Assembly (NCBI GenBank): GCA_028284605.1
Contig: JANQRL010000011.1
Coordinates: forward strand, 1-64,000
Direction: 5' to 3'
Source: Paracoccaceae bacterium
GTDB lineage: Bacteria; Pseudomonadota; Alphaproteobacteria; Rhodobacterales; Rhodobacteraceae
DNA length: 64,000 nucleotides
The notes beneath the pieces are model-generated. The model saw only the letters and a list, made by a program, of their open reading frames with translations, ran no database searches and was not told the DNA's origin. Positions 4,273-62,870 of this stretch are shown one piece after another. Made by a program: the position numbers and the translations under genes. The stretch's first letter is position 1; every line of letters begins with the position of its first letter.

Positions 4273-4431
4273 AAAACTCTTCGAAGAGTTTTGCCAGACC
4301 CTTCGAAGGGTCTGGTCGCGCAGCGTCGACGCGCGCCGCCGATCACCGCCGCTACTTGTGTCCGGCGCCTGCCTCGCTCCGCCGCGACAAAACTCTTCGA
4401 AGAGTTTTGGGCAGACCCTTCGAAGGGTCTG
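4273..4431. repeat. Pair of double TTCGAA palindromes between convergent genes
   Basis: Two copies of a double palindrome. Copy A has AAAACTCTTCGAAGAGTTTT at 4273-4292 and CAGACCCTTCGAAGGGTCTG at 4295-4314. Copy B has the same two at 4389-4408 and 4412-4431. Each half is a perfect 20-bp palindrome and would form a 9-10 bp hairpin in RNA. They fill the gap between mcl1 and guaD, which converge, so a bidirectional terminator role is reasonable. The same pair recurs at 58534-58684. The ~70 bp between copies A and B is not conserved in the other pair. Confidence 0.85.
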
Positions 4432-4483
4432 CGCCCCGTCGATCGCCGTGATCCGGACACCGCGGGCGCCCGATCCCGGGGCC

Positions 4484-9998: not shown

Positions 9999-10247
9999 AT
10001 GGCGAAATACAACCGGACATTCGAGCTCGGGCTCGGCGATGTGGAGCTGATCGAGACGGCGCTGAGGGCGCGGAAGACGGCCTTGTCGGAAGAGCGGCTG
10101 GCGCTCCTGAACTCCGAAGCGCCCGAGGAAACCGCCCGCATCGATGCCGAGCTGCAGCAGATCCACGACCTCCTCGGCCACCTGCACAACCAGAAGGTCT
10201 TCTACCGCCCCGACACCGTGGGCGAGGTGCCCTATGTGAGCGGTTGA
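9999..10247 (+). CDS. Small conserved hypothetical protein
   Basis: 82-aa soluble protein rich in charged residues, mostly helical by eye (DVELIETALRARKTALSEER, then ETARIDAELQQIHDLLGHLH). No signal peptide or membrane segment is seen. A GAGGAGGAAAG site lies 14 bases upstream. It follows argP by 48 bp on the same strand; a functional link is not implied. No family function is recognised. The codon use is typical of neighbouring genes, which supports real coding. Confidence 0.7.
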   Translation: MAKYNRTFELGLGDVELIETALRARKTALSEERLALLNSEAPEETARIDAELQQIHDLLGHLHNQKVFYRPDTVGEVPYVSG

Positions 10248-10258
10248 AGCGTCAACCC

Positions 10259-10280
10259 CTTCATTTGGCTGAAAATACTC
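10259..10280 (+). repeat. 22-bp CATTTGG...AAATACTC motif, copy 1
   Basis: CTTCATTTGG followed by CTGAAAATACTC, 11 bp past the stop of the 82-aa gene. Other copies are at 21888, 23667 (inverted) and 38112. It is AT-rich against a G+C-rich background and always in a gene-free gap. Confidence 0.8.
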
Positions 10281-10371
10281 AATTCGGACTTCGCTCTGTC
10301 AAGATCGGGCCGGCGGCGGGCTGGGCAATTCCGGAGCCGGGGGCGGGCATCCCTCCGGCGGACCCGCGCGG

Positions 10372-10463
10372 AAGGCGCGTCGACGCGCCTTGATCAAGCG
10401 CCGTCGACGGCGCTTCGAGACCCGCTTTCGAAAGCGGGTAACCGCGGCCCGTCGACGGGCCGC
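10372..10463. repeat. Row of four 20-bp palindromes at 24-bp period
   Basis: Four perfect, mutually different 20-bp palindromes start at 10372, 10396, 10420 and 10444, exactly 24 bp apart with 4-bp spacers (gatc, cgag, aacc). They are AAGGCGCGTCGACGCGCCTT, AAGCGCCGTCGACGGCGCTT, ACCCGCTTTCGAAAGCGGGT and GCGGCCCGTCGACGGGCCGC. All are centred on TCGA. They occupy the 304-bp gap between the 82-aa gene and the 3' end of yebC, which converge, so termination is one possible role. No T-run follows. Confidence 0.85.
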
Positions 10464-10551
10464 CGCCCGGCAGCCCCGGCGGAGCATCATCTGGTTGAGC
10501 ACGCTGCCGGCAACTGGGCGTGGTAGCGGAAGCGTATCCCTCCGGACAGTC

Positions 10552-11301
10552 TCAGGCCGCCGAGTAAGCCTCCATCACCTCCTCCGTCGCCTCGAAGTTC
10601 GTCGTGACATTCTGGATGTCGTCGTCGTCCTCGAGGGCCTCGACCAGCTTCATCAGCTTCGTCAGACCTTCCAGGTCCAGCTCGGTCGTCGTCGTGGGTT
10701 GCCAGATCAGCTTCGCGCTCTCGCTCTCGCCCAGCGCGGCCTCCAGCGCGGTTGACACCTCGTTGAGGTCGGTATCGGCGCAGAGGATCACGTGGCCGTC
10801 CTCGGCGCTCTCGCAATCCTCCGCCCCGGCCTCGATGGCGGCCATCATCACCGTGTCGGCATCCCCGGCCTCCGCGGCGTAGAGGATCTGCCCCTTGCGC
10901 TCGAACATGAAGCCGACGGAGCCGGTCTCACCCAGATTGCCGCCGTTCTTGCCGAAGGTGGAGCGGACGGTCGAGGCGGTGCGGTTGCGATTATCGGTCA
11001 TCGCCTCGACGATCACCGCGACCCCGCCCGGCCCGTAGCCCTCATACCGGATTTCCTCGTAGTTCTCGCCCTCGCCGCCCTGGCTCTTCTTGATCGCCCG
11101 CTCGATCACGTCCTTCGGGACCGATTGCGACTTCGCCTCCTTCACGGCGAGCCGTAGCCGCGGGTTCTTCTCGGGATCGGGGTCGCCCATCTTCGCCGCC
11201 ACGGTGATCTCCTTGGCGAGCTTGGAGAAGAGCTTGGAGCGCGCCGCGTCCTGGCGCCCCTTGCGGTGCTGGATGTTCGCCCATTTGGAGTGGCCGGCCA
11301 T
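10552..11301 (-). CDS. yebC: YebC/PmpR-family protein
   Basis: 249-aa YebC family protein ([20 protein letters not shown] opening, full family length). Members bind DNA as regulators, and recent work links YebC-type proteins to relief of ribosome stalling at proline stretches; which role applies here is open. Domains: an N-terminal three-helix domain (1-75), then two alpha/beta domains around the [17 protein letters not shown] and TLNEV-like segments. It is single in its transcription unit. The four-palindrome row lies just beyond its stop. Confidence 0.93.
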
Positions 11302-19009: not shown

Positions 19010-19057
19010 CGATCTTTCATTCAGAAAGATCGTCGACGATTTCTCGATGAGAAATCG
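19010..19057. terminator. Two adjacent hairpins between convergent genes
   Basis: CGATCTTTC-attca-GAAAGATCG (19010-19032) and CGATTTCTC-gat-GAGAAATCG (19037-19057) are perfect 9-bp stems, linked by the palindrome ATCGTCGACGAT (19029-19040). They lie between the Hint gene stop (18982) and the SLC13 stop (19065, minus strand), a good place for a two-way terminator. No long T-run follows on either strand. Confidence 0.65.
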
Positions 19058-42254: not shown

Positions 42255-42275
42255 CGATCTTTCGACGAAAGATCG
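42255..42275. repeat. 21-bp palindrome in the mgtE/ydcH divergent gap
   Basis: CGATCTTTCG, one A, CGAAAGATCG: a perfect 10-bp stem. It shares CGATCTTTC/GAAAGATCG with the first hairpin at 19010. Here it lies between divergent starts (92 bp from mgtE, 118 bp from ydcH), so a terminator role is unlikely; an operator or 5'-leader hairpin of mgtE fits better. Confidence 0.7.
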
Positions 42276-58509: not shown

Positions 58510-58533
58510 GGCCCCTGTCGACGGCGCGGCGAC

Positions 58534-58684
58534 AAAACTCTTCGAAGAGTTTTGCCAGACCCTTCGAAGGGTCTGCGGCGCCCCCCCCGGGGCCGGCCGG
58601 AGCCGGAGTGCGGATGCCGGGGACCGGTCCGGCAATCCGGCGGAAACTCTTCGAAGAGTTTCGTCAGACCCTTCGAAGGGTCTG
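58534..58684. repeat. Second pair of double TTCGAA palindromes
   Basis: Copy C: AAAACTCTTCGAAGAGTTTT at 58534-58553 and CAGACCCTTCGAAGGGTCTG at 58556-58575. Copy D: GAAACTCTTCGAAGAGTTTC at 58643-58662 and CAGACCCTTCGAAGGGTCTG at 58665-58684. In copy D both arms changed together (A to G and T to C), keeping the palindrome. Orientation and order are those of the 4273-4431 pair. They lie between two plus-strand genes, so they may end the mcm transcript. Confidence 0.85.
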
Positions 58685-62849: not shown

Positions 62850-62870
62850 AAATCCTTCGACGAAGGATTT
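62850..62870. repeat. 21-bp palindrome between ppk and ppx
   Basis: AAATCCTTCG, one A, CGAAGGATTT: perfect 10-bp arms with the same CTTCGACGAAG-type centre as the 42255 palindrome. Located 15 bp after the ppk stop; it may end or process the ppk transcript before ppx. Confidence 0.7.

Follow-up and report, generated by a model that had tools for sequence, protein, structure and literature searches.

Enterobacterial BIMEs and rhizobial intergenic mosaic elements (RIME) are mosaics of several palindromic intergenic motifs, as are the arrays described here. In the alphaproteobacteria the CGTC super-family of REP elements is common, and no dedicated transposase is known for REPs of this type (PMC3733652). 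The array at positions 10372-10463 of the window, which is the whole stretch of 64,000 nt of DNA that was analysed, is best read as a single copy of a REP-like stem-loop array that is dispersed through the extragenic DNA of the genome.

Structure and setting of the array

The original prediction of four perfect 20-bp palindromes at 24-bp spacing, with TCGA centres and 4-bp spacers, proved exact to the base for all four modules, p1 to p4 (Table 1). The array lies inside the 304-bp gap between two genes that converge, one a small CDS whose product has no match in Pfam and the other a gene of the yebC/TACO1 family. From each 20-bp module a hairpin can form, with a stem of 8 bp and UCGA as the loop or, alternatively, a stem of 9 bp and CG as the loop. 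RNA folding of the 116-nt array stretch gives four hairpins (z = -3.6), and with DNA parameters the stems are about equally stable (z = -3.2). No T-tract is visible at 10372-10463. Rfam 15 yielded no match at gathering (the best sub-threshold match by E-value had 22.5 bits versus a cut-off of 80), and no plasmid matched positions 10240-10560. With respect to viral carriage, IMG/VR contains no exact match for p1 or for a module of the second family described below.

Table 1. Modules, spacers, neighbouring genes and second-family elements in the window.
Feature	Position	Strand	Remarks
Module p1, AAGGCGCGTCGACGCGCCTT	10372-10391	.	perfect 20-bp palindrome
Module p2, AAGCGCCGTCGACGGCGCTT	10396-10415	.	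perfect 20-bp palindrome
Module p3, ACCCGCTTTCGAAAGCGGGT	10420-10439	.	perfect 20-bp palindrome
Module p4, GCGGCCCGTCGACGGGCCGC	10444-10463	.	perfect 20-bp palindrome
4-bp spacers	GATC 10392-10395, CGAG 10416-10419, AACC 10440-10443	.	
Small CDS, 82 aa	9999-10247	+	stop 124 bp before array at 10372
yebC/TACO1-family gene	10552-11301	-	Pfam PF01709 + PF20772; stop 88 bp beyond array
Second family, two pairs	4273-4315, 4388-4432 (4273-4432)	.	convergent gap
Second family, two pairs	58533-58575, 58643-58684 (58533-58684)	.	co-directional gap, 23 bp after upstream stop

Palindrome excess and the repeat family

The window contains 12 perfect palindromes of at least 20 bp, versus 0.2 of 20 bp (none longer seen) per dinucleotide shuffle. 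A sample of 1.22 Mb, stitched from the 3.56-Mb genome and representing about a third of it, contains perfect palindromes of 20 bp (148), 22 bp (58), and 24 bp (21), as compared with 9 and 1 of 20 and 24 bp, respectively, in order-4 Markov sequence. Among the 277 palindromes of at least 16 bp in this sample, 221 have a TCGA centre. If any series of perfect palindromes (18 bp or longer) at steps of 20-27 bp is counted as a run, the sample comprises 84 runs of at least two and 19 of at least three palindromes, namely 65 with two members, 4 with three, 13 with four, and one each with five and six. When sequence of the same size was simulated five times with an order-5 Markov model, only single palindromes and no runs appeared. 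The objection raised alongside the original prediction, that shuffled sequence may contain comparable runs equally often, therefore does not hold.

The 14-mer core of p1 has 51 copies in the genome, versus 1 for the reversed control. At 26 of 27 p1-core sites in the 1.22 Mb at least three further modules are present in register, whereas even one module was found at only 22 of 3000 random sites. The p1-core sites were picked by p1 sequence alone, and the own-genome array set is therefore not an ascertainment effect. The usual module order, in either orientation, is p1 AAGGCG, p2 AAGCGC, p3 ACGCGx, and p4 xCGGCC, and a few arrays of this genome have five or six modules. Because all four modules recur genome-wide in fixed order, the array belongs to a repeat family, which contradicts the initial view that it is not a repeat. 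Dozens of array copies with unrelated flanks are present in this one genome. Between copies, the mean pairwise identity of modules 1-4 is 0.97, 0.85, 0.76, and 0.90, respectively, while the spacers (0.36, 0.43, and 0.29) are almost random. Hence, the proposal that geometry is conserved and sequence is not applies within one array and fails between copies, where the sequence of each module is conserved. The related proposal that a period of about two helical turns matters, and with it helical phasing of the modules, is not supported, because the steps range from 22 to 26 bp and the second family uses 22 bp.

Copies of p2 elsewhere often keep the arms and alter the central 4-6 nt (e.g., AAGCGCCGCAGGCGGCGCTT). 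The p3 module at 10420-10439 represents a private two-sided change from the family form ACGCGCTTTCGAAAGCGCGT, other copies carry the two-sided p3 variants CTTGCGCAAG, ATCTCGAGAT, and ATCGCGCGAT, and the outer pairs of p4 vary on both sides between copies.

The second family consists of pairs at 22 bp, CAAAACTCTTCGAAGAGTTTTG and CCAGACCCTTCGAAGGGTCTGG, which are often repeated about 100-200 bp apart. In some of its copies TTGGAA replaces TTCGAA, and the central-base variants seen with arms kept in second-family and p2 copies are TTGGAA, TTCCAA, and GCAGGC. A region elsewhere in the genome (C8:27751-28190, corresponding to L022:7751-8190) has three second-family pairs at a spacing of ~199 bp with partly similar inter-pair DNA, and looks like a tandem duplication of the element plus flank. 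There are also tandem hairpins with an odd centre (TTCGACGAA) or with triloops. A third tandem-hairpin family is represented in a convergent gap at window positions 19010-19057 by two 9-bp hairpins with odd loops, CGATCTTTC-ATTCA-GAAAGATCG and CGATTTCTC-GAT-GAGAAATCG. Single 21-nt palindromes with an odd centre, of the TTTCGACGAAA type, occur at window positions 42255-42275 and 62850-62870; these may be a different, promoter-side element. Similar copies, CGATTATTCG-N-CGAATAATCG, occupy divergent gaps elsewhere in the genome.

Covariation of the arms

Across 16 arrays of the genome, 99.6% of 512 cells are paired, and the stems show 56 two-sided versus 4 one-sided changes (14:1). None of 500 shuffles matched this covariation, and in slid structures the paired cells fall to 27-52%. 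A set of 16 arrays from five genera, which includes the own genome once, shows 118 two-sided versus 3 one-sided changes (about 39:1); the rows from other genera were found with palindromic seeds and chosen partly by symmetry, so that their pairing percentage is inflated. Both comparisons agree with the original prediction that symmetry is kept as the letters change. As related bacteria have the same layout with different letters, base pairing is retained (and perhaps copied) even as the letters drift. Deviations from pairing concentrate in the module centre. Such changes of the centre with the arms kept are expected of short-loop hairpins and not of a two-fold protein site. That single-sided intermediates are almost absent is compatible with strong selection acting on the two strands as well as with template-switch copying, a process that creates and maintains stems via multi-base compensatory changes (PMC8794818).

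Placement at gene ends

Relative to the 1139 genes called in this analysis, 227 of the 244 palindromes that reach 18 bp or more fall between genes. Among gaps of 60 bp or longer, two or more palindromes are found in 36 of 103 convergent (35%), 20 of 303 co-directional (7%), and 5 of 178 divergent cases (3%). The enrichment in convergent gaps over the rest (Fisher p = 7e-15) is the clustering at convergent gene ends that had been predicted from the single locus. In co-directional gaps the element is nearer to the upstream stop in 16 of 18 cases (p = 0.0013). T-tract terminator-like sites were found at 3-17% of gene ends in this genome, at 5-9% in relatives, and at 6% of the array-carrying convergent 3' ends. 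Canonical hairpin-plus-U-tract terminators thus look rare in this genome. Since such T-tract sites are scarce whether or not an array is present, and in relatives as well, there is no signal of replacement, and the idea that the arrays replace canonical terminators was rejected.

Distribution in other genomes

The distribution was searched with a three-centre pattern, which matches 33 places in the own genome versus none for the reversed-pattern control. Matches number 19, 10, and 10 in G205, G210, and G302, which represent three further genera of this GTDB family, and fewer true arrays were found in G232, G277, and G025. Raw counts can mislead, as the 8 matches in G253 are mostly a non-palindromic tandem repeat. 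With other, genus-specific arms, the four-module geometry has a patchy distribution among the genera of this family (Rhodobacteraceae-type), most of which lack arrays. No four-module arrays were found in 285 sampled genomes of other alphaproteobacterial families; none of these has more than 4 pattern matches, and among the matches listed they are apparently chance and non-palindromic. The arrays of other genera are likewise located at gene ends, with 11 convergent, 11 co-directional, and 0 divergent clusters in the stretches sampled.

A Marivita MAG carries a five-palindrome array with different arms after its own yebC. In three genomes other than the own one (L116, L251, and L252), arrays or pairs are found at yebC 3' ends, although this locus was chosen for having one here. 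Sharing of element positions between orthologues of different genera is not above chance (1/10 versus 8/62). At one of these loci (L251:1319-1408, genome G232), the stop of the gene convergent to yebC is located just where the first palindrome of a four-module array ends, so that array and coding sequence seem to overlap. Perfect palindromes of 22-24 bp also occur in pairs near gene ends in other Rhodobacteraceae (L121:212-257 and L082:5792-5837), and one pair of this set has GCGC/CGCG centres.

Possible functions and origin

The arrays are characterized by perfect symmetry, an order of four modules, arms that covary on both sides, a location at gene 3' ends, and a single geometry with genus-specific arms. 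As the palindromes extend over whole modules, the hairpins are the same in both transcripts that enter a convergent gap, and a strand-symmetric 3'-end element is possible. We give an even chance to a reading in which facing transcripts have their 3' ends marked or protected by the array, as a REP-like set of strand-symmetric hairpins; folding and placement suggest such a function at the RNA level. Transcripts from both sides of the gap would form the same array hairpins. The array might then stop or slow the polymerase or, more likely, block 3'-to-5' exonucleases that trim the transcripts, for example after Rho termination. Both facing genes would gain a stable 3' end, and read-through would be limited. 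The symmetry would be kept by selection and perhaps also renewed by hairpin-templated (template-switch) copying. Several observations count against a 3'-end role. The element occupies only a third of the convergent gaps, its positions are shared between orthologues of different genera no more than by chance, folding with DNA parameters is about as good, and a preference for 3' ends would also be expected of a neutral or selfish repeat that is kept out of promoters. A more far-reaching version, which we consider only tentatively, is that family-specific multi-hairpin elements at transcript ends have their symmetry physically copied by hairpin-templated replication. The geometry would then be the inherited trait, and the stems would drift by two-sided changes with almost no single-sided intermediates.

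Alternatively, the array could be a selfish REP-like repeat that spreads as a unit through a hairpin-recognizing trans-acting enzyme and has no host function, its location at gene ends reflecting only where insertions are tolerated. This is rather unlikely. The dozens of copies in unrelated flanks of one genome, the absence from most genera of the family, and the unshared positions would be in line with it, and known REPs show the same gene-end preference (PMC3733652). However, mobilization by a RAYT was rejected because the own genome lacks a Y1 tyrosine transposase (PF01797), which is also absent from six of the seven array-bearing genomes (the seventh has one match). Moreover, almost random spacers beside modules that are 76-97% identical indicate that the copies are not recent insertions and that the modules look maintained.

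It appears improbable that the element acts as DNA, its tandem sites being dyads or able to form cruciforms and recognized by a topoisomerase, a recombinase, or a nucleoid protein at convergent ends, where supercoils accumulate. The modules are palindromic throughout, centre included, G-U intermediates are few, and the two strands are equivalent, all of which would suit such sites, and E. coli BIMEs bind gyrase and IHF. However, the middle arm positions vary freely but symmetrically, which a sequence-reading dimer does not require, the helical phase is loose (steps of 22-26 bp), and 8-bp GC-rich arms extrude poorly.

Even less probable is a purely mutational product, in which replication template switching in hairpins copies one arm onto the other and the palindromes persist and drift without function. 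The preponderance of two-sided changes within the genome and across genera is what such copying would leave behind, and stems are known to arise and be maintained through this process (PMC8794818). On its own, however, this process leaves the module order, the sequence conservation between copies, the constant TCGA centre, the ~24-bp register, and the gene-end bias unexplained. A chance or composition artefact of a GC-rich genome has practically no probability left and is already refuted by the controls (84 runs observed and none simulated; 33 pattern matches versus 0 for the reversed pattern).

How stem pairing is kept while the letters change is a long-standing question of RNA evolution, and compensatory changes are usually thought to proceed via G-U. 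With dozens of copies and a 14:1 ratio of two-sided changes, strain-level sequencing could tell symmetric copying from selection. The arrays also offer a testable candidate for the separation of facing genes in genomes that are apparently poor in U-tract terminators.

Comparison with known elements

The motifs of BIMEs and RIME are imperfect palindromes and, unlike the arrays, are not known to form a regular lattice. A MITE or insertion sequence, with conserved terminal inverted repeats around a conserved body, was rejected, as only the modules are conserved, the spacers are near random, and the outer flanks pair no better than shuffled partners. No closing stem around the array was detected (longest outer helix 3.67 versus 3.82 for shuffled partners). 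A CRISPR was rejected as well, since the four units differ and the spacers measure 4 bp.

The arrays share with REPs that they are short palindromic extragenic repeats in many copies. Like CGTC REPs, they are hairpins scattered outside genes, with stems of 8 bp, loops of 4 nt, and A-T as outer pairs, located between convergent or after co-directional genes and showing complementary stem variants (PMC3733652). However, they lack the tag beside the stems (GTAG in 1, CGTC in 3, and TGTC in 1 of 166 outer flanks), and their centre is fully palindromic. Whereas CGTC REPs form inverted dimers of one unit, the arrays consist of four different modules in fixed order at ~24-bp steps. These modules have no head or tail, and neither head-head nor tail-tail dimers were found.

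Like intrinsic bidirectional terminators, the arrays provide hairpins for two facing genes; unlike these, they have no T-tracts and comprise not one hairpin but two or four in register. The sequence features of an intrinsic terminator, a GC-rich hairpin followed by a T-tract, were thus not found, and by sequence the arrays do not qualify as such terminators. No description of a two- or four-module lattice was found in the literature searched, which leaves most subscription journals outside its coverage. The arrays would belong to the general class of repeated bacterial stem-loop families (PMC1590033, PMC2267715), for which the same literature contained no two- or four-module lattice with genus-specific arms.
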